DNA of 64,000 nucleotides from Cerrena zonata (Eukaryota > Basidiomycota > Agaricomycetes > Polyporales > Cerrenaceae). The first letter of the stretch is position 1; each line of letters begins with the position of its first letter. The notes beneath the pieces are model-generated. The model was not told the origin of the DNA. It searched no databases and saw nothing but the letters and a program-made list of their open reading frames with translations. Location of the stretch: assembly GCA_038087015.1 (NCBI GenBank), contig JASBNA010000026.1, positions 372,001 through 436,000 of the forward strand. Direction: 5' to 3'. This document shows, one piece after another, positions 23,339 through 63,727 of this stretch. The position numbers and the translations under genes were made by a program.

Positions 23339-23369
<31 letters not shown>
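23332..23369. repeat. GATA tetranucleotide microsatellite
   Basis: ATAGATATAATAGATA leads into about seven uninterrupted TAGA units ending at 23369. The final TA is also the left target duplication of the adjacent inverted-repeat element. Confidence 0.9.
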
Positions 23370-24307
23370 CAATCTGGTGGAGATATAGTATCTCAGACCT
23401 TCATCTGATTTTGCGCGCATAGAAATTGTTTGTGACACTGCACTGCACATAGGCATGCTAGGCTTTATGAAAGGGTAGATCTCAACTCTCATTCAGAATA
23501 CAAACCCAACAATATATCATACATGTCATATACAAGGGAAATGATGATAATGATATTTTGCCAAGCAACATGCTCCCTGAAGTAGAATATACTCTCCTCC
23601 AAACACACATTGATATTGGTAAGGTAAAATCATCTTTATAGTAGGTTATGAGGTATCCCTCATAGCATAGTCTAGCTGTCCTAAGTATTGGACAAACTTT
23701 TTCTTAGCCCTAGGGTTAGTATATCCTGTTGCAAGTTTCACTTCTAATACTGTTCTTCATAGTACTCTGTCTTATATATTTGTGGTTATGCTCCAAGTTC
23801 TGTCATGGTAGCTGGGGTCCCATATATTGCTTCATTCAACAAATCTAGGCTACCTTCCTTTGTATTATTTGGCTACATGATAAGCCTTGTATGCTCAGAA
23901 AGGGGTGTAATTTGGGATGTTTCTTTGTCAGGGGAGTGGAGAAGTAGAGCATACTTTGGAAGTCTGTTTTTGACCTTATAGCTAAAGGGAGAGATGAAAT
24001 TGGAGTACTTCAGTTGGGTAATAATTATGAGAGGACCATCTGTTAAACAGTGAAGTCTGAGCCCAGCAATTGTAACCACAAAGAGGGCTTCTTGCTGAGC
24101 TGATGAGAGTAATTGTAGACACAACCACAACACTATTTCCCTTGTATATGACATGTATGATATATTGTTGGGTTTGTATTCTGAATGAGAGTTGAGATCT
24201 ACCCTTTCATAAAGCCTAGCATGCCTATGTGCAGTGCAGTGTCACAAACAATTTCTATGCGCGCAAAATCAGATGAAGGTCTGAGATACTATATCTCCAC
24301 CAGATTG
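23370..24307. mobile_element. 938 bp element with 173 bp near-perfect terminal inverted repeats and TA duplication
   Basis: Positions 23370-23542 match the complement of 24135-24307 almost base for base, starting CAATCTGGTGGAGATATAG. TA flanks each side (23368-23369 and 24308-24309). The middle has no gene. The length, TA site and lack of coding fit a Tc1/mariner-related MITE with long arms. The arm sequence resembles the 156 bp tandem units at 19.8-20.4 kb (GCGC...AGAAATTGTTTNTG, GGCATGCTAGG, CATACATGTCA). Confidence 0.88.
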
Positions 24308-24581
24308 TATTTATAATATACCATTGGATTTGTATTTCAAAGGAGCATCCAAATATCCCCTTGTACTCTTGCGAATGAAGGTTGTCTTGGCGTATCCTAA
24401 GGCACATCCATCGTTAGAACATCAGCATACAATAAACCTATCGTTCGGAGGCCTCTGTTAACAAAGGCGACTCCAAACGAAGGGAGATATGTTGTCAGGC
24501 ACCACTCACCTCACGTTGCTGCCCAGGGTTACACGGGCCGGTGTAGAGTCAAGCTGAAGAGTTTGCCGTCGGGCGCACTCC

Positions 24582-41394: not shown

Positions 41395-41687
41395 GCTCTT
41401 GTCAAACTCACCAAGTTATGCTTGACAAAGGTGCATGCCGATTGATGCCGACGTTACCCGCCCGTGACTGGTCTGTGACCTCGCGTTCAAACGCTACCAC
41501 TTTCAAGCCCTCCACATCAAAATTGTGCCGAGGCATTGAGTTCCCTTTCTTTTTTTCAGCAGACTTCTGGGGTTTATAGCCAAAACGCACAGCTATACAA
41601 CAGTGAAAAAATGGTGAAAAGTCATTGAGTTTGGATAGAACCCGAAGCGTACCAGTGGGGAGCGTTCAAACTCCCCAGGTGCGATAG
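41395..41687. repeat. Truncated copy of the MITE at 61480-62153
   Basis: The stretch is nearly identical to 61866-62153, including TTGACAAAGGTGCATGCCGA, GTGACCTCGCGTTCAAAC and the terminal CAAACTCCCCAGGTGCGATAG followed by TA. The left half of the element is missing: it stops at the right edge of the 365 bp MITE. Confidence 0.88.
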
Positions 41688-41689
41688 TA

Positions 41690-43980
41690 GCTCAATTTCG
41701 GCAAGGGGAGCTGTGATGGTGACGCATCAGCGAGCGGGAGTAGGCGACGTTTGTGTTTTCTTCTTCACAGCCATGGCGAGTAGATGTGTCGTTGGAATCT
41801 GGCACGCACTTGTGATCGTATCTGCTGTATTACTGGCACGGTCACAGGGACTGTGTCGTTATAAACGTGAGTGGGTTTTGCATCTAGCCTAAGTACGCTC
41901 AGCGACTCGCATGGACACATGAGTACATGGAGATAGGCGAGCTACTATCAACTCTAACGACGCGACCACCTACTCGTGAGGGGTCTAGCAAACTGGGGTT
42001 TCGCGGTTTATTGGTCCAATACTAACGACTCCTGTCTTTGCAGTGACAACGGTCTGCTGTCTAGGATGCGATATAGGGTGTCTGATATAGGATGGGAGGC
42101 AGCGCTTAGCTGTGGTGAACATCAGTCGGTGCGTTTCTCATGCAGGGTGTTCCGGAGAAGGATGAGATGGGCTGCATCCAGTCTTAATCGAGCGAAGCTC
42201 TGAAGCATCGATACAACAGCACTTGGAGACGCTAGATTGAGACGTGCTAAGTTCGAACAACGTCAGAAAAGTGCTGTTGCCTTTGCAGATGAACTCCGAC
42301 CGGTTGAGCTGGTGTAGTTAAAGGTTATAACTACCGAGGCTGTGGGTAGCAAGGTCCTTATATGTGGACACAGCAGCACTTAGAGGCGCTAGATTGTAAC
42401 GTGCTCAGTTTGAACAACGTCAGAAGAGTGCTGCTGCCCTTGTAGACGGGTGCTTGCTAGTCATCGTGTAGGTAGCGTATATACCTGCCAATCGACGTCA
42501 GCTTCGTGACTCTATATTGGTGGCAGCTCTTACTCACTGTGTATGTCACGGGTAAGTGTGCCTGTGCTGTCTCTCTAGGACTTTCCCGCCGCACGATAGC
42601 GTACAAGGTGGAGCGAAGAAGGTGTTGGGTCACCTTGATGGACGGGCAGGTGAGTGAGTGAATGTCAACGCGGCACGCAAGTGTGTGAAGCAAGGTCAGT
42701 ATGCGGTTCAATGAGGCTCTTGGAGTTTATGAGATTTAAGAGAAAAACCCATGGCGATGGTGGGCATGAGGATCACATGGAAGTTTAATCGGAAGGTCAC
42801 GATATTTAGTGTTGAAAGAGACATAAGTGAGGTGTATTGAGGAGCGGAGAGTTAAAGTGGAAAATGAGGGTAGTATTGAGGGACGGACAGAGAAAAATGC
42901 CTCTGGCCAATGTTGTTAAGAATTGAGATTAAGCATCAAGGATGTGAATGTGACGCAGTGCAAGCAGTGGTTGGGACTTAAGGTGTGATGACAGGAATGC
43001 TTGTACGGCAGAAGATTGATTTGTAAGGAGGTACAAGAGTCGCAAGGATGGTGCCACACAGTGGCCATTAGTCGAGTATAACCCGACCAACGCGAGCTAA
43101 ATTGTAAGATTCGCTATGAGATCATATAGTGCATTATGCTGAACAAATTGTACACAAAATCGATGCGCGCGAGTATAAGTTACCGGGTCTGCATGCGCGT
43201 ATCTTTTGATGACCATACTATCACACCACCGGAGTTTGATGCTTCACCAAATTGTGAAACTCTACGCGTTCTACAGTTTCTACATATAGTCAGAATCAGT
43301 GGTGCATATAGCAGAGATATACTACTACATGAGCTGTACAGATTTACATTAGGTTTAGTATACAATTGAGTGTGCCAGAGGGGAAAGGTGGGATTGACAC
43401 TACAGCTACATTCAAGTTGATCTAATTGAATCATACACTTGCCCGTCGACGGATAAGGATTCAATATGCAGAAATAATCCATTTCAGCTCTACAATCCAT
43501 TGATAAACGAACGGAATGTAGTAAAACCTGGATATTGCCTTGCAAGGTGTGACACCAGCCACCCGGATTCCATGCCGAAATCAAACCCCGCCGTAAGCGG
43601 TGGCTTCACCAAGGTTAGTATGAGCCTTTTCAAATTTTGGTTGATGGATCGCTTGTCAGGTTAGGACCCCTGGCTATTCCCCAGGAGGTTATATTCCAGA
43701 ATCCTAATTTTCGGGCCAATCCGTCCTCTATATTCTGGCGTCTAGATGTCCGAAATGGGATACAACCTCGATTTTTGGGCACTTTTCGTCCGAAATCAGC
43801 ACATAGGCTTGACATACGGGTGTCTCGTCCTTTCCATGGGATACAACATCGAAACCGGCGCAATGCGTCCTTTTTAGGGATATAACCTCAAATACGGCAC
43901 ATATGTTTCGAAAATGCTCTGTATGTTCATTTCAAACTCAGACAATGCGAGAAACAGAACAACAATTATAATGTATTAAC
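41690..43980. other. Non-coding stretch with local duplications
   Basis: No gene is recognised. Apart from the 157 bp direct duplication listed separately, the region from 43.62 to 43.89 kb repeats a phrase like GGGATACAACNTCGA several times among CCGAAAT-type motifs, suggesting a decayed repeat. Short frames have no family resemblance. Confidence 0.4.
42215..42449. repeat. Direct duplication with 157 bp spacing
   Basis: About 78 bp (CAGCACTT-GAG-CGCTAGATTG, CGTGCT-AGTT-GAACAACGTCAGAA-AGTGCTG-TGCC) occurs at about 42217 and again at 42374, with roughly 85% identity. The DNA between the copies is unrelated. Confidence 0.7.
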
Positions 43981-43988
43981 AGCATGTA

Positions 43989-44958
43989 CTGTATTCTACA
44001 GCAATTTGCATAAGTATAGAGCGGGTCGAATTGTGGCGTAAAATCGCAGTTGCTGTTCCGATTGATCGGCAGAGTATCGGCAGTCACAGCTTGGCCGCTG
44101 CAGTGATGCGCAACCAGGTGGAAATCCATGAAAGTCAGGCCAGGTGGCCTTGCCTAAAGCCGGCGGAAATCCGTAGGCCAAGGCGGTGACCTGACCTTCG
44201 CAGGATGCCGTAGGTGTCTGATTGGCTGTTCAAATGTTACCCGACAATAACCTAAAATATGAGACGAAGTCAGAAATATCCCTAATTTGGATATGTACAG
44301 CATTTGTCATAGCTCTGGATTGAGCTTTTGTTTTTGGTATGTCACTTTTACGCCTTTAGGAAAGACCACCCAAGTGTGAGAAAAGACAAACCCATTTTCC
44401 CAGGCGAAAGTCAGGCGAATGAATGGCGAATGGCTTTCCCGAAGGTTACTGACCTTTAACATCACTGGGCCGCTGGAAACTTCGAGGTATGCCCATATTT
44501 CGACTACGTAGTTGGTGTCGCAGTAGTGGTATTCACCTTGGAATGACCTGAAGTATAGGAGATAGCCCAATAGGGAGCAGTGCAGCTTAAAGTATGATTA
44601 TCTAGCTACCCTGGTGCTTACTGTATTATTTTGACTGCAACAAGTGTTGCAATACACATTTCAGACGTTCTATACCTCAGATTGTGACTTAAACTCGGTA
44701 CAAATGCTTGGTCATATTAGAATAGAGGCAGGATAGAAGCAGTACGGCGATTTGGGACATTTAGAGCGAGGTAACCTCTCTTATTCGCTATTCAAAGGCT
44801 CCTGGAATGTTAAACCGCATACATACCTTCCCAATTTGGAGGACCTGCTCCCCGTGGTCATCATGGCAAGCAGTGACTGCCGATCAGCCGGAACAACGAC
44901 TGCGATTTTACACCACAGTTCGACCTGCTCTATACTTATGTAAATTGCTGTAAGACAG
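43989..44958. repeat. Inverted repeat, about 95-105 bp arms and 0.97 kb overall
   Basis: 43989-44094 is complementary to 44864-44958 at roughly 85%, sharing ACAGCAATTT-CATAAGTATAGAGC, GTAAAATCGCAGT and GATCGGCAG. The left arm has an extra 10 bp repeat (GAGTATCGGC). The interior has no recognised gene. It probably represents a MITE-type element; no target duplication was found. Confidence 0.65.
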
Positions 44959-45118
44959 TTGTGCTATTGGAAAACATAACTAACTCTCAATCTCAATATC
45001 TGAATCACCGGAAGACTCCTCATCCCCACAAGGCGCCTACGTATGGTCGGCGGGTTGGTCGGACTTCGTTTGAGGTTTTGACTTCGACGCGCGACATTTG
45101 GCGCCCGAAACTTCGGAG

Positions 45119-45444
45119 CTTGAAATGAAGTAGTCAATATGTTTTAATTCAATTTAAAACTGGGGGATTGTTTTCTAAGGGTGGACAACCTCAAATATAT
45201 GTTATATGGGTCTCATTTAAGCCATATGTTTTAAAAAACCGAGTGTCAGATGCACACAAGACAGGCGAGATACAAATCTAAGTAGCCTGAGTGAGTATCC
45301 GAGTCGTCGACATTGGCATAAACTCTCTGGCACGAGGCTTTAATTAGTAAGGAAAGCGGTGACGATAATTAGTAAGGAAAGCGGTGACGACCCGTGACCA
45401 TGAGAGCAGATACAACAAAAGAAACTGCTTTGCCTGTGTAAATC
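45119..45444 (+). repeat. Left terminal inverted repeat (326 bp)
   Basis: It matches the complement of 51476-51776 throughout, except for single-base differences and a 25 bp tandem duplication (AATTAGTAAGGAAAGCGGTG... twice, about 45340-45391). Taking out one duplicate gives 301 bp, exactly the length of the right repeat. Confidence 0.93.
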
Positions 45445-46763
45445 CGAAGACGCAGAAACGGTATCTTGATATGGTAATGTTTTTTCCTATTCAATCATGT
45501 TCATTGACATTCGGTTGGCTCCCGAGACGATGTTAATCATTCTCTAGATGACTATATGCTCCACTCAAACTGTGCACCGCCACCATCCGGTCCACACTGG
45601 GAAGTGGTCCACTGCCCGTCTGCGGTCAATATCTCAAGACTAGCCACAGAATAAAAACAATAAATTGGAATAATATATTGTATGAATCATAAACACTAGC
45701 TACCATATTGGTTCCTTCACTGGATATAACAGAATTCCGGTCTGAGTGCGTATTTCTGAGAGGTATTACCATTTTTGGGCATTACAGATGGAGGACCCTG
45801 AACCCTCCAAGCCATAGCTCTGTCTAACTTCCTCAATAGGTTCCTATTTTCAGGAAAATATATTTTTAATACCTCTACTTTATGCTCTCATGAGTAATGT
45901 ACTGAGTATTAGCAGAGATGAATTATATTTCGAATATATTCTAATGGAGGGACTTGTGAGTAGCTTCAAACAAGAAAGGAATATTGAAGCTTGATGAATA
46001 TGCCCAAGGTCTTATTGGGTATGTTCTATGGTATATGAAGTAGTATAGAGCATAACCATGCTACTCTCATATTTATTATGGTTTATCTACATGCTCAGGG
46101 ATTGAATATATATATAAAGTGTCTGTTTGAGTACTGGAAGTTCCCATAGAGTAGTTTTTTGATTATCTTGTTTTGAAAAGGCCTTGTAGGGATTTTTGAG
46201 GACTAAATATATCTACTCATCATTTCCCCAAGTTTGAAGTAGAACAGTGAAAGGATGACCATTCTACAGCCCATTTACTATGAGCTTCCTCTATATCGCA
46301 GAAATGGTGTCGGATTATTCCCAAATATAGTATGTGTCAGCATGTGGACCACCTTGACTTGTATGTTTAGATATAATGTTTATTGTCTCATGAATGAGCA
46401 CCAAATATTCAATCAATTACTTCAAGTCCCTTCTACTTCCACTCATAACCTTTTTCTAATGATCTTGTCACTCTTTTGAACAATCTGTGGCCCATTTCTC
46501 GATGGGCGCCTACACTGGACCACTACCAGGTCACACGCCAGAGTGGAGGTCTCTTCAATAGAATATTCATAGCGAATGTTCATCCCACTTGAAAAAATAA
46601 ATGGTCTCATTATATGGTATATAAATACCTACAGTACTGCATTCCACAATTTAAGAGCTAGGTTTATATGAATTTACTCTTTAATTTACAAATTTGCGTA
46701 GGGTGGACCAGTTCCCGGCGGTTGACAGTATGTTGTTTTCTGCTCATCATCAGACTCTCATAC

Positions 46764-48597
46764 TCACGTGTATCTGCTAGATGTCATTAGCGAGGCTCTT
46801 GAAATGTGGAATATAGCATGGACAAAGAGAACCGTCCATGAGATTCAACAGTGAGTTAATATGTATCAGCTACTTGAATCGGTCTCTAACTTAGTTCAAA
46901 CTACTCTTAGTGAAGATGTATCTGTACGCTTCTGTGGAAACATCAATCCTCTGCCGAACCTTGAAGATGGTACCCTCTCAACATTCTATCACACTCACCT
47001 CAAGGAGCACAATTCTGAGTCATACTTTGGGCGTTATGTCGGAGAATGTCGACGTCCTCCTCTTCCTCTAGAGATTGTGATCGATATCTCAGATGTACGT
47101 CTTGTTTTATTGGGATTGTATTTCAAAAACTTTTCTAATCCAAATTTCACAGTTCGAAGGTCGAACTCATTCAAAGGCACCAGAAAAGTTCCAGACCCCC
47201 AAGCGCGGTCGACATGCTGTATCAGATGATGCTGATGACCTCGATGAGGAGGATTCTACCTCTGGCCACAAACGGCAACGAAAGAGTTCTAGTATGTGTA
47301 ATCCCTTCCTATTTTCAAGTTGTGACTTACGATAATAACTGTTATCAATTAGCACGTCCTGGACCACTGGTGTCTCAATTTGAGCCCCGACATGCACAGA
47401 CAGTACCCCCTTCATCAGCTCAACGTGTCACCCTTCGTGTTGCTCATTTCGAGCTTGATGCAAAAGGTGCCTTCCATGTGGACTGGACTCCTGAGAACGC
47501 TTCTATTATTAAGGCGGTAATCGAAAAGGATGCAGTCAACGTCTCAGGAAGAATGAAAAAGGTCTACAATGTAAGTGTATTATTTAGGCCGTGACCTTAC
47601 TTTCGTTGACTACTAATTGTTAAATTATATCAGATATCTCTATTTCGAGGTAGTGCTGCACCTGAACCATGGGTCGCCAAGCGATTTGTCAATATTGGCA
47701 ATGGTGTAGATGCAGTCACGCCTAAAGAAAACCAAGACCAATTACAAGCAGAAGCAAGTCGTATTTGTTTGGGAAAGGCTATGCTTGCTGCGTTTTATGA
47801 TCGTGCATCCGAAACTGGTACCCGAATCTCCAAAGGTATGTCATTCTCCTCATACTGCAGTTAAGTTCCTATCTTACATGGGCATATTTTAGCGTTTAAT
47901 TTCACCGAGATTATCCTTGTATCGGAGGTATACCAGTGTCACATCGGCCCATCCGTAGCATCTGGCTGTAGTGGAAGCACTCTACCTGAAAATACCACTA
48001 TTGTCTGGTTGCTTGAGCCTCGATGATCCAGTCGTGCTCCGACTAAATGGAGTGGAACTGTGGACTTCCCAGTTCACAATGATCAGAAAGGGCAGACTAT
48101 GGATGCCTTTGGTCATTTCAGCTTGACCTGGACCAAAAATACAATCGTTCTTGCTGATCTCCAAAGTGAGTATTCAAGCGATCCCACTCTAACCATATCA
48201 GCTTTCTGACTAGGATATATTAGGCACCTCCACATTTGTTAAGACACCGCTTGCAGGTGGTATACAACGCTCATGTGATGTCCTCTTCGACGTCATGTCG
48301 CATTCTCTTGCCGGGTACGTACCATAAATATGAACTTATATAATACCAAGCTAACGATACACGTCTGGTAGATCCACTGGTGTTGGTGATCATGGTCGTG
48401 ATGGTATCATGCACTTCGTGCAGAGCCATAAGTGTCAAACATTCTGTGACGGGCTGGGACTTGAACCCCTGTCTGAGGATGATATTGAAGAGACGGCCCT
48501 GACAAATTATGAAGATTACAATGAGGATGTTGAAGATAATCCGGAGAATGAGGATTATAATGGTGAAGAGGATTATGAAGAAGCAGAGGAAGAGTGA
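46764..48597 (+). pseudogene. Alpha-type (atypical) protein kinase gene with one premature stop
   Basis: Exons 46911-47094, 47153-47291, 47353-47570, 47634-47835, 47893-48165, 48224-48314 and 48372-48597 join in frame through introns of 57-63 nt. One more exon lies before 46850 and the true start is unresolved. Kinase signs are a YNISLFRGSAAPEPWVAKRF strand pair with candidate ATP lysine, IVWLLEPR, an AFGHFSLTWTKNTIVLADLQ core, LFDVMSHS, the GVGDHGRDGI loop and a closing HKCQTFCDGLGL cysteine/histidine cluster as in MHCK/EF2K-type kinases. A very acidic tail ends the protein. Codon TGA at 48024-48026 interrupts the core right after EPR; CGA would be expected there. Confidence 0.82.
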
Positions 48598-48984
48598 TTG
48601 CAGTTTAAGACATATATGTCTGTTAGTGTATTTGTACTTTAATCCGGAATCTCAGTCTGTTTTGTGTCAGAACTTGATTTCTATGGTGAATTATATTGTT
48701 GTATATGCAATGGTAAGGCAGTAGAGTTCGATGAAGTTAGAGATGAATATACATGGGTTATGATACTAAAATAAGAGCGAGCAGAGCGGGTGTGGTATGA
48801 AAGAGACAGAAGACGAAAAACATAAAATAAGACATGGAAAATGTAAAATACTTGGAATAAAAAGTATGAGCTCGGAACGAGCCTGGTAGCAGTATCAATG
48901 CAAGTCAATATGAGTCTGGAGTTTCTTCAATTTTACTGTTATATTTCATTTCGTACGGGTGAATTATAATAATATTGTATATGA

Positions 48985-50535
48985 TTAAAAAACATGATCA
49001 CACAGACGTGATGTCATCATCCCAAAAATCCGCCATCCATTAGCAGTGTCACGGTAAGGAGACCCAATGCTGCAATAAACATGTTCCGCAGCATGACAGA
49101 AAGTATCATCTACCCAACGAAATGCTTCGGATCTGGAAACACTGATATTTTGCCGGAGCGCATCAAGAGTCTCTTGTGGTACCGGTGTACTGTACAGTGC
49201 ACCACCATAGTCCTGGGGTCGTGCAAACACGTCATCTGGTGGCGCACCAGAAGGAAGGTGGGATTTCCTTTGTTTACGGACACGGTGGTTATTCCACAGT
49301 TGCATGAAACGGTCCAATTCGGTTTGAACAATAGGGGGCCACAACCATTGGAACAGCTTGCTAAATAGCAATGCAATCGTCAGATCCCAGCTTTAATAAC
49401 AAATAAAATCAGATACATACATATGAATTATGTTATTTGGATTAAAGAGCCCGTTGTGCTGCCCTTCACGTAAGATATCCTCAATATTAAGACCAGCCTT
49501 CTGACGTAACTGATGCCAGAAGTTCTCAATACGGACATTAGTAGTGCTCTTGAGGGCAACAAATGCAGGTCGTTGTGTACGATCTATATCGGGCAGGAAT
49601 GACTCTCTAATATCTAGTCAGTAAAAGTGGAAATGAATACAAAGAAAAACCGTACCGCAATGCTATTTGTATAGCGTACATCTCGCCTGTTTCACTTCCG
49701 TGGTAAACGGTGAGTTGTAGAGGGAAAGCTGTAGATAGATTCCATGAGTAGAGTATCAAATAAAATCCACAATATACAACATACCTCCATATATCTCAAG
49801 GAAATCAAGGTGGACATGTCCAATGGTAGTAGCAAGCCGTGCATTGGCAACGAGATGCAATATCTTACCACTGAACTTATCTCGGAGTCCATAGACAGGA
49901 ATACCAACTTCTCATGGCCATCAGAATTGACTTCCTGGAATACACCTCCCGATCGCAGGTGCCCAGTATGGACCTGCTTACGCCGCAAGTGGGGATGTCG
50001 GATAATCCGACCTGCAGGATCTTCAGCCTTCATAACAGCTCGAACCATAGACCTAGAGTTTCCGACTATAAGGCTTCAGCAATACAAACTGTGTAGAGAT
50101 ATCACATACCGAGGGATAACATGGCCCTCATTTGCAAGTAAATGTCTAACGGTATTGGGACCATTGAGACGGCGGGGATCGGCAGCCATCTTCTGAACAA
50201 CCAGAGAGGTAACAGTCTCATCAGATGGAGGCTTACGTACAACAGGTATGTTGTATTTGGTATGTAACTCCTTCAATTTTGTACGCTTGTAAATTTTGAG
50301 TCATTAGTGTCGATCAGACGGTAGGTCAGAACAACGTTTCATACTTAATTGAATATCCCAAATCAACTTCCAGTCGTCGAAGTCGATCGTTATAAGGGAG
50401 CTGCTCCTTGGAATACTTGATAAGTGCAGCAATGAGGACATCTTCTGCTGGAACTGTAAGGAGATCAAAATGAGAATAGACTTCATGCACGTCATGGTAA
50501 AGATTGCAACTTGCCAATGCCATTATTTTTGCCAT
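48985..50535 (-). pseudogene. Integrase-core (DDE) transposase gene, frameshifted
   Basis: Six exons (50535-50345, 50285-50110, 50052-49785, 49728-49656, 49606-49421, 49360-48985) fit GT..AG introns of 49-60 nt. An ATG opens MAKIMALASCNLYHDV. A helical DNA-binding part includes VPVVRKPPS-like IPVVRKPPSDETV. The catalytic core shows NSDGHEKL (first D), GHVHLDFLEIYGAFPLQLTV then YHGSETG, and NVRIENFWHQLRQ (E). The C-terminus has LWNNHRVRKQ and SGAPPDDVF, typical of fungal and fish 'integrase core domain' proteins. Exons sum to 1,270 nt, one base out of frame: the break lies after HEKL, before IPVYGLRDKFSGKIL. The second acid appears as Y instead of D. Confidence 0.82.
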
Positions 50536-51057
50536 TATAACCTGTCAGATTGACCATGGTAGACGAGGTGTTGAATGGAATAAATGTCTAGATAGAGTAG
50601 GTTAGGGAGTAGTGGAGGCAGAGGGAGAAAAGTACATTGAGTCTAAGTTATAGTGGGACGATATTTATACCAAGTGTTTATGTCAAAGCTTGATCGATGA
50701 GAGTCCATTGTTCAGGTTGCCAGAGATAAGGTTTAAGACCATTTGACGTTGGAGCATAAGCAGTGTAAGAGGGCCGACGCAATATGAGAATAATATTGTG
50801 AAGCGGTATTGAAAACAAAGGCCAAAGTATGATATATGATTATTGAAGTTGAACCCAAAAGTGTGTCCTAGCGGGCCGAGAATTTAAGACAATGATGTCA
50901 CTGTAGGCAGGTCTCAAGTTATTCCGTAGCCAACCTATCATTGATATCATGGTCGACGGTCAATTGAGATGGTAAATCTTTACATAAAATTATGAATTAT
51001 GATAATAACATGAACACATTACCCGAGAACTTACCATTGGCACATAGCTTGAGAGTG

Positions 51058-51291
51058 TCACGGCCAATACTGGTCGCGGTGGCAGGACACGAATCTGGCT
51101 CTCGGAACAACACGAAGAAGCACCTGGCCAGAATATATATCACGGATTTGATAGATTGTGGCACTGTTGCTGATACTGAGTATCTGGGCCTCGACGCCAA
51201 CATCGCCAAGTCTGTAGTTGCCAGTATTAGGTATTATGGTGGTTCCTAAAGGCTCGGAGTTAGCAGCGGAGGTGTTAGTTTGATGGGCCAT
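51058..51291 (-). CDS. Small unrecognised frame between transposase and right TIR
   Basis: An ATG-initiated 77-codon frame starts MAHQTNTSAANSEPLGTT and contains GNYRLGDVGVEAQILS and IYQIRDIYSGQVLLRVV, a plausible beta-rich domain. It is read in the same direction as the transposase, 520 bp upstream of its ATG. It could be a third element gene, a first exon or chance. No family is recognised. Confidence 0.35.
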   Translation of the reverse strand: MAHQTNTSAANSEPLGTTIIPNTGNYRLGDVGVEAQILSISNSATIYQIRDIYSGQVLLRVVPRARFVSCHRDQYWP

Positions 51292-51475
51292 ACTGGTAAC
51301 GTGCTCACAATGGTGGTATCCAAATAGTAGGGGAAAGATGAAGATGTGTGTTCTCTGATTGTCGGTCACCGTTCGGAAGGTGTATCTATATATCACTGGG
51401 GGTTAATGTCAATGGGCTCAGGTAGTATCAATATCATTACACATAAGCTGAAACTTGACCAGGTTTTCCGAGTCC

Positions 51476-51776
51476 GATTTACACAGGCAAAGTAGTTTCT
51501 TTTGTTGTATCTGCTCTCATGGTCATGGGTCGTCACCGCTTTCCTTACTAATTAAAGCCTCGTGCCAGAGAGTTTATGCCAATGTCGACGACTCGGATAC
51601 TCACTCAGGCTACTTAGATTTGTATCTCGCCTGTCTTGTGTGCATCTGACACTCGGTTTTTTAAAACATATGGCTTAAATGAGACCCATATAACATATAT
51701 TTGAGGTTGTCCACCCTTAGAAAACAATCCCCCAGTTTTAAATTGAATTAAAACATATTGACTACTTCATTTCAAG
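51476..51776 (-). repeat. Right terminal inverted repeat (301 bp)
   Basis: It is the complement of the left repeat. Visible differences are the absence of the 25 bp duplication and G/A changes such as CCCATGACC against CCCGTGACC, and CTACTTTG against CTGCTTTG. Confidence 0.93.
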
Positions 51777-61479: not shown

Positions 61480-62153
61480 CTATTGCACCTGGGGAGTTTG
61501 ACAGACGCCGTTTTGTCAAACTCTATGGGTTAGACACTTTCCACTCAGAATTAAAATCCAGTATGGTATGATATTGTAGCTAGATACTATTACATGCATT
61601 CTTCCAATTTTCAGATGAAACCGTCCAGAATTGCATGTGCCAGAGGACAATATGGCGATGTGCAGCCTCATCTTCAAGCAGATCTTAGTAGATCGCTGGC
61701 GAATGCCTTGACGGATCCTCCTCAAATGGGCAGATAAGATAGAGATATATATTTATAGCATACTCTAGTAGTCTGATTCTACGATCACAGTAGAGGTCGG
61801 AGTAGAGTTAACTTATCTTCCGAGTGTTCATGCAAATGTGACATGAGCTACTACAATGGTGTTCACACGCTCTTGTCAAAGTTATGCTTGACAAAGGTGC
61901 ATGCCGACTGATGCCGACGTTACCCGCCCGTGACTGATCTGTGACCTCGCGTTCAAACTCTACCACTTTCAAGCCCTCCACATCAAAATCGTGCCGAGGC
62001 ATTCAGTTCCCTTTCTTTTTTTCAGCGGACTTTTGGGGCTTATAGCCAAAATACACAGCTATACAACAGTGAAAAAATGGCGAAAAACCATTGAGTTTGG
62101 ATAGAACCCGAGGCGTACCAGTGGGGAGCGTTCAAACTCCCCAGGTGCGATAG
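61480..62153. mobile_element. 674 bp TA-flanked MITE; second copy truncated at 41395-41687
   Basis: CTATTGCACCTGGGGAGTTTGA at the left matches the complement of the right end with one mismatch. TA flanks it at 61478-61479 and 62154-62155. The right half is almost identical to 41395-41687, so it is a repeat family. It has no coding capacity. Confidence 0.85.
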
Positions 62154-62155
62154 TA

Positions 62156-63727
62156 GTAGGCGGTAGGCACGGTGGTTGCTTCGGGACCTCGGCGTTGAGT
62201 CTTGAGTCTTGACTAATAACACGAACCAACGAAGTTCACAACGCTGAAGATGTGAAATAAGAGGGCAGCAAGCTTAAGTGGAGTCCGACGAAAACACGCT
62301 AAAACTGACCGACTGGCGCTTTGTTCGAGTCAGGTTCCCTTCAAGTTATATATGTACGTCTGACTTCTTAATGCCTCCGCCTACTCTTACTAACTGTCGG
62401 ACAGTCGCTGTATGTTCAAGTTAGCAGTCTTCTCCAACTCGGAGTTGATTGTGACCTCAACTAGTACTCACCGTATAACGAGGAGGGGCCGTCTGGACGA
62501 ATTCAAGCAAATGAAGATGTGGTTCAGAGAACGGTTCAAAGAGCAAGGGTGCGTGTTCATAAAGCCTTTCCTCAAGCTCTTCCGACTTGCGCGCCCCGTT
62601 GAGAGGCCGCGTCAGCCCCATGTCTCGTCAGCAACACTCACCAATGCTCCACCTTCCTACCGTAGGTGAGAAGATGCAGTGCAAAACTTGAAACTACGAC
62701 AAGGCCGTTGCTCCGGTAGTTAGGTACTGCTCCACCTCTCGTGACATCGTTGCTCCGAGTCTCACTTCTCATTTACCAACTTTCCTTCTGAAAAACCTGA
62801 ACTCATCTTCTTGTTTTCCTCTTCTCAACATCGACGCTCACAGGTGCCAGTGGCTCAGTGAACAATGGGTAACAATGTACCTCCTTTGTTTGCCATTTCC
62901 GTAGCTCATGAATCATAACATCCCAAACGAGTTCACTCGACCACTCTGAGTTCCCCGCCCAATTTGCATAGTGCGAGTGCCGTGCTCAGGTCTGTCCTCC
63001 CTTTTACTATGTTCAACTCAGTCCTGAGTCCCCGCGCAGATATTTGACCGTAGGACATCGATTGCGCTCAACACTCCCCATTCTCTCTTTGACTCAGAGC
63101 AGCTCTATCTAAATAACAATGACATTGAAACAACATTCAAAGAAATTCCGTCGACTTTATGGACCACAGTGTCATAGAGACCTCCCCGGCGCCGTTTTGA
63201 CGATCATCCACTTCTTCATCATACATTTATAGCACATTCCATGATGTCTTGACGTCTACTTTTTGTATCCTGAAACTACCTTCTCATTACAAAATTTGTG
63301 TATGTAGATATTCATTGCATAGAAATATACTCTTGATTGTGAAGTTCTACTTGAATCAGAGCCCATCGGCTTCTCGCATCTTTGAGTGATATTTATTGTC
63401 TCGTTGATCTAGATGCTCTTGTGCAAGCCCAATAAGTTCAATATCTCCCAAAAAGGAACTGTAAGTACATGTAGCTTTGCTGATGCTATGCTACTATCGG
63501 CTACCAAGACACTGCAAACCCATTCAATTTCATTCGTTTCGACCCTAGTCTCGGCGACTACCCTCTTCGCTTCCTAGCATTTTGGCATTTTGGCACTTTG
63601 ACTTCCTACTTCCACGAATGTGTACCCTCAAGGTCATCTCCAGATCTTTCCGACAATCCAAACCCTGCAATAAACAAGAAACATCCAAAATACAGGCGTA
63701 CATGAGTGATTCATATCCCAACTCCAA
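62156..63727. other. Mostly unassigned region
   Basis: One ATG frame at 62412-62669 (plus, 85 codons, basic: RITRRGRLDEFKQMKMWFRERF...) could be a small gene or exon but matches nothing I know. The rest, pyrimidine-rich on the plus strand, shows no supported coding. Confidence 0.35.

Follow-up and report, generated by a model that had tools for sequence, protein, structure and literature searches.

The stretch of DNA analyzed here (the window, 64,000 nucleotides; G000:C26:372001-436000, contig JASBNA010000026.1) belongs to an assembly of the polypore Cerrena zonata that comprises 55.5 Mb in 171 contigs (GCA_038087015.1). It harbors a transposon-like stretch of 6.66 kb, hereafter the window element, in which terminal inverted repeats (TIRs) enclose an integrase-core gene and an alpha-kinase gene. 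This arrangement is confirmed: the near-identical repeats of about 300 bp reported in a preliminary description of the locus measure 329 and 304 bp and share 100% identity over their outer 247 bp, and the two genes between them, an integrase-core transposase and a convergent, tail-to-tail alpha-kinase as described there, match only PF24764 (rva_4, 'Integrase core domain'; 1.2e-8) and PF02816 (1.2e-24). The features of the element are listed below.

45042-45118, plus strand: candidate outer left end, beginning TATGGTCGGCG
45119-45447, plus strand: left TIR, 329 bp, mirror of 51473-51776
45341-45390, plus strand: tandem duplicate of a 25-bp unit, left arm only
46861-48597, plus strand: alpha-kinase gene (PF02816), with exons 46861-47094, 47153-47291, 47353-47570, 47634-47835, 47893-48165, 48224-48314 and 48372-48597
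48024-48026, plus strand: in-frame TGA in the kinase domain, the exact end of the public gene model P0001
about 50535-48985, minus strand: integrase-core transposase gene (PF24764), with introns, broken
49703-49705, minus strand: TAC codon (Tyr) in place of the second catalytic Asp, as seen in an alignment of homologues
49896-49908, minus strand: transposase frameshift zone, where the matches of two frames meet
51058-51290, minus strand: short open frame (MAHQTN...) between the right arm and the transposase, no Pfam match
51473-51776, minus strand: right TIR, 304 bp

We interpret the window element, with a probability of roughly 0.86, as a degenerate, non-autonomous copy of an IS3EU-like DNA transposon whose standard genes would be an integrase-core DDE transposase and a convergent alpha-kinase. 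Over their whole alignment, the two arms differ by three substitutions and one 25-bp insertion, the latter being the tandem duplicate in the left arm. The kinase scores 87.9 bits against a PF02816 cut-off of 21.3 and retains the VAKRF, ADLQ, LFD, GVGDHG and HxCxxxC motifs. Its seven-exon splicing was inferred by eye; the public gene model at this position, P0001 (QCA50_012647, 337 amino acids), starts further upstream. A PDB sequence search with the kinase gave no match; a kinase structure model was poor (pLDDT 40.4) and was not used.

Key support comes from a second kinase element on contig C6, found via an integrase search (C6:921k) and spanning C6:919951-926235 (6,285 bp). Its terminal repeats are identical over 643 bp, its ends read TACGG...CCGTA, and the 5-bp sequence CAGTG is present on both outer sides. 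The integrase, QCA50_005905 (P0014), is an open frame of 424 amino acids to which the gene model made here is 100% identical; the kinase, QCA50_005906 (P0134), is an open frame of 619 amino acids convergent to it, and the two are consecutive public locus tags on a 1,952,743-bp contig of the same size as C6. The kinase has a Cys-rich N-terminus and matches PF02816 at 5.7e-17 (62.8 bits, cut-off 21.3). The integrase matches PF24764 at 7.4e-07 and possesses a complete DDE triad (D168/D227/E274), with a trace of HTH_21 below the cut-off (17.2 versus 28.1 bits). A PDB sequence search for the C6 element returned six weak matches, the best at 5e-07, and an integrase search of viral contigs gave 155 pattern matches but no relative. 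Between the window and C6 elements, the integrases share 31% and the kinases 21% identity, so that the occurrence of the pair in both cannot stem from one recent duplication. The idea that the kinase is cargo of the element, put forward in the preliminary description, gains support from this far-diverged relative with the same two genes, the same convergent layout and 643-bp repeats of its own. That description had also held that repeats around the transposase only, or kinases never lying between such repeats, would speak against joint movement; in the window and C6 elements, the kinase lies between the repeats together with the transposase.

The layout of a transposase and an opposed alpha-kinase is not new. 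Whereas the preliminary description knew of no published counterpart, Kojima (2025; PMC12730594), in the passages available, describes it for TET+ IS3EU transposons, with rust families from seven species (6-bp duplications, TAYGG..CCRTA ends), one family from Tuber indicum, and cargo exchange (TET/JBP) between transposon superfamilies in fungi. For IS3EU generally, the accessible parts of PMC10045372 give TA..TA ends and usually 6-bp duplications. No further account of the transposase/alpha-kinase pair was found in a literature search that included passages of PMC10045372, PMC4469406 and PMC5295586, most subscription papers lying outside its reach. Like the rust TET+ families of PMC12730594, the window and C6 elements have the opposed gene pair and TIRs longer than 30 bp (304/329 bp in the window, 643 bp in C6), and the C6 element also has TAYGG..CCRTA ends. 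They differ from these families in their polypore host, in the length of their repeats (about 300 bp in the window, 643 bp in C6), and in having no TET/JBP gene between kinase and transposase; such a gene is excluded because the gaps between the two genes, 387 bp in the window and about 50 bp in C6, are too small. Possession of a TET/JBP gene is what sets the TET+ families apart and is not a hallmark of IS3EU as a whole. With IS3EU/GingerRoot elements (PMC10045372) they share an integrase-like DDE transposase and, in C6, TA..TA ends, whereas the usual 6-bp duplication has only a 5-bp counterpart in C6 and none that is readable in the window, and the passages of that paper we drew on do not mention a kinase. 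On these grounds, both elements would represent an IS3EU-like, TET-free polypore relative.

A different origin of the kinases, as host genes around or beside which transposons inserted, appears very improbable to us. Related kinases do occur in several mushrooms (13 matches, four in Favolaschia claudopus), known from proteins without genomic context, and the alpha-kinase family is reported in the available text of PMC4469406 to be highly expanded in rusts. Against this stand the matching ends outside both genes in both elements and the neighborhood of the alpha-kinase loci found in the genome (window, C6:922k, and a weak one at C30:463906), all three of which adjoin transposase-type genes. A host kinase gene struck by chance insertions was rejected, and the neighborhood of the three loci again bears out the earlier proposal that the kinase is part of the element. 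At the weak locus (C30:461561-466951; L028:3062-8452), a gene whose alpha-kinase domain is weak and partial is convergent to a CxC5/CxC6 gene of the type associated with Kyakuja-Dileera-Zisupton (KDZ) transposons; a TIR search there found nothing above the direct-repeat control. The PF02816 genome search missed the C6 kinase, which means that such searches overlook members. Of 7997 candidates scored in a protein search with the kinase profile, the C6 kinase alone reached E<=1e-10. By eye, no contig is common to the 13 kinase matches and the 120 listed of 199 integrase matches, which represent different sub-families (the fungal integrase sub-families as used here being in part our own assumption).

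Several observations weigh against the window element being a kinase-carrying IS3EU-like transposon, at least in the simple form of that reading. The seven-exon kinase model is open except for the single TGA, and the transposase has a frameshift and a Tyr in place of the second catalytic Asp, a residue that 114 of the 121 other rows in the alignment have (120 listed of the 199 integrase homologues plus the C6 model, a duplicate of the listed P0014). Due to these three lesions, all absent from the preliminary description, autonomy of the window copy is very improbable, and it appears to be dead and degenerate; its near-identical arms and broken genes would fit a recent, trans-driven move of a defective copy, or arm-to-arm conversion. 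No target duplication is readable at 45119 and 51776. A candidate TA..TA-type end lies 77 bp outside the left repeat, where TATGGTCGGCG at 45042 resembles the start of the C6 element, TACGGTCGCCG; it has no counterpart beyond the right arm, and the two arms would end unlike each other if this were the left terminus. As such it is only suggestive, and weak because terminus-like sites occur at chance frequency (seven sites in the window within two mismatches of TACGGTCGCCG versus 6.8 expected); a count of 1 versus 0.03 expected for the 45042-type terminus is post hoc, the pattern having been shaped after the match. On the right, the flank from about 51806 on is a repeat also present at C29, C1 and C19, which places the boundary at 51776 or slightly beyond. 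Joined-flank searches of the assembly gave no empty site for either element, the matches being their own flanks and, for the window, also unrelated repeats. The duplication of the C6 element is 5 bp instead of the 6 bp usual for IS3EU (PMC10045372, as far as available) and that of the window element is unreadable, for which reason strict IS3EU membership is not claimed. Both elements are single-copy in this genome, so that transposition together with the kinase is not directly seen, and the C6 arm as DNA query matched its own two copies only. The AKRF lysine motif is missing in the C6 kinase and in one of six others (P0013) in the alignment, which leaves the activity of the C6 kinase unproven. 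Finally, a fold search with an integrase model (pLDDT 80.7) yielded none of 38 matches at E<=0.001, with DDE transposases among the weak top ranks.

The lack of a target duplication at the window element, together with its repeat-rich flanks, would also suit a segmental inverted duplication in which the repeats are not transposon ends. We consider this highly unlikely in view of the C6 element, in which the same genes lie between ends with terminal signatures and a 5-bp repeat on either side, and in view of relics of the window repeat that stand alone at other genomic places. The genome search with this repeat, as proposed in the preliminary description, turned up relics elsewhere but no further full-length copy. 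At C87:16089-16566 (L025:4090-4567), two inverted pieces of the window repeat lie back to back, possibly a deletion derivative or a relic resembling a miniature inverted-repeat transposable element. C30 and C25 (L026, L027) share about 5.9 kb at 99.4-99.6% identity with a relic of the window repeat inside, which may reflect duplication or haplotype copies.

Also on the negative side, no kinase was detectable at any of the four other rva_4 loci inspected (C6:378k, C65, C1 and C10). Nor was an inverted repeat longer than 27 bp present in the stretches inspected there (9.9 kb at C6:378k, 8 kb each at C65 and C1, only 3.3 kb at C10). These loci come from a PF24764 genome search with 17 matches at eight loci, the remaining ones being C59 (twice), C8:616k and C6:230k, the last below cut-off only; the same search missed both the window integrase and the one at C6:921k. 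The profiles are imperfect controls, as the integrase profile was blank in the stretch from C10, and the C30 kinase was picked up by the kinase profile at no better than 0.0033. Because the Pfam model fits the integrase at C6:378k far better (6.5e-62) than the one in the C6 element (7.4e-07), the integrases that are paired with a kinase may constitute a separate branch.

A KDZ-type element at C8:590228-596613 (L073:729-7114) offers a comparison. It has an 8-bp duplication (CATAATAT), and in it a CxC5/CxC6 gene and an RTC4-domain gene converge; matches were obtained for CxC5 and CxC6 but none for the actual KDZ transposase domain. Long TIRs, a second convergent gene and a common TIR module (see below) are shared with the window element, whereas the CxC5/CxC6 gene and the 8-bp duplication are absent from the latter. 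KDZ membership of the window element was rejected, as its genes match only PF24764 and PF02816. The RTC4-like domain gene is a possible second kind of cargo; no literature joining RTC4 with KDZ was found in our search.

What, then, might the kinase do? In the IS3EU-like transposon that we envisage, the transposase would bind the long inverted repeats, probably via an N-terminal helix-turn-helix, and would move the whole segment, kinase included; the kinase may, for example, phosphorylate the transposase or host chromatin/silencing proteins. Since the pair was kept while both proteins diverged far, we somewhat favor the view that the kinase serves the element and is not a random passenger. That it was captured by chance and kept by its position between the repeats, with no role in transposition, seems unlikely, if by no means far-fetched: TET/JBP cargo is exchanged between fungal superfamilies according to the accessible part of Kojima (2025; PMC12730594), a weak alpha-kinase lies beside the CxC5/CxC6 gene on C30 and an RTC4-domain gene inside the KDZ-type element on C8, and the window kinase is broken. 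A chance passenger is harder to reconcile with the same pair in the same orientation in two far-diverged elements and in the published TET+ IS3EU families (PMC12730594, as available).

The arms of both kinase elements contain a module of two boxes separated by a diverged spacer: box A, GGGGGRTTGTTTTCTAAG, and box B, GAGTG, which begins exactly 79 bp after box A begins. In the window, its parts are located as follows.

45162-45179, plus strand: box A of the left arm, GGGGGATTGTTTTCTAAG
45241-45245, plus strand: box B (GAGTG) of the left arm, +79 from the start of box A
51650-51654, minus strand: box B (GAGTG) of the right arm
51716-51733, minus strand: box A of the right arm

Allowing one mismatch, GGGGGRTTGTTTTCTAAG occurs at 26 places in the genome (22 exact) versus one for the reversed pattern. 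These include both arms of the KDZ-type C8 element and a site on C2 that precedes a CxC5 gene, as well as tandem arrays of three copies upstream of the C6:378k integrase and of six copies on C132. In 23 of the 26 places, GAGTG is found at exactly +79; it is replaced by AAGTG in C7 and missing in C73 and C131. The places are not independent, because arms of one element and tandem copies are counted separately, and by eye fall into about eight families. Among seven family representatives, spacer identity is 21-49%. Columns shared by at least six of the seven numbered 11 from box B onward (2000 shuffles: mean 0.5, largest 4), at box B and around +106 to +114, compared with four in the spacer (mean 0.8, largest 6) and two upstream (mean 0.4, largest 4). 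Since the search was made with box A, its identity arises by selection; this does not apply to box B or to the spacing. A box C, TTGAATA, near +107 is present in the C6 and C8 elements, C12 and C34, and not in the window arms. A known RNA as the identity of the module was rejected, with no match at the Rfam gathering threshold in L030, L074, L029 and L073.

At three sites the module points inward, toward coding sequence, and looks like a promoter: 266 bp before the ATG in C8, about 190-235 bp before the first ATGs in C2, and about 240 bp before an open frame with a start codon not established at C6:378k. The outward orientation in the C6 element counts against a promoter, as does the distance to coding sequence in the window (1.2 kb for the transposase, 1.4-1.7 kb for the kinase). 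Tentatively, and with less than even confidence, we propose that the module is a rigid cis element in IS3EU-like (kinase) and KDZ-type (RTC4-domain gene) repeats, serving as a shared promoter or as the docking site of a single factor encoded by the host or by an element, which would place transposons of different origin, and the kinase cargo, under one control.

Elsewhere in the window, a small element with 76-bp inverted repeats (89%) at 43997-44952 lies inside another dispersed repeat (43933-45031), the two parts of which are nearly adjacent on C7. Two 180-bp inverted repeats of 99% identity, 592 bp apart (23363-23542 and 24135-24314), are probably a small non-autonomous element, and 278-bp direct repeats of 95% identity lie 20 kb apart at 41413-41690 and 61879-62156.

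That a module with fixed spacing is common to different fungal transposons suggests convergence of these on a control element, or its exchange among them; if our proposal is true, differing fungal transposons would be under common control. The open-frame, cleanly flanked kinase element in a wood-decay polypore makes the spread of alpha-kinases as transposon genes directly testable outside the rusts.

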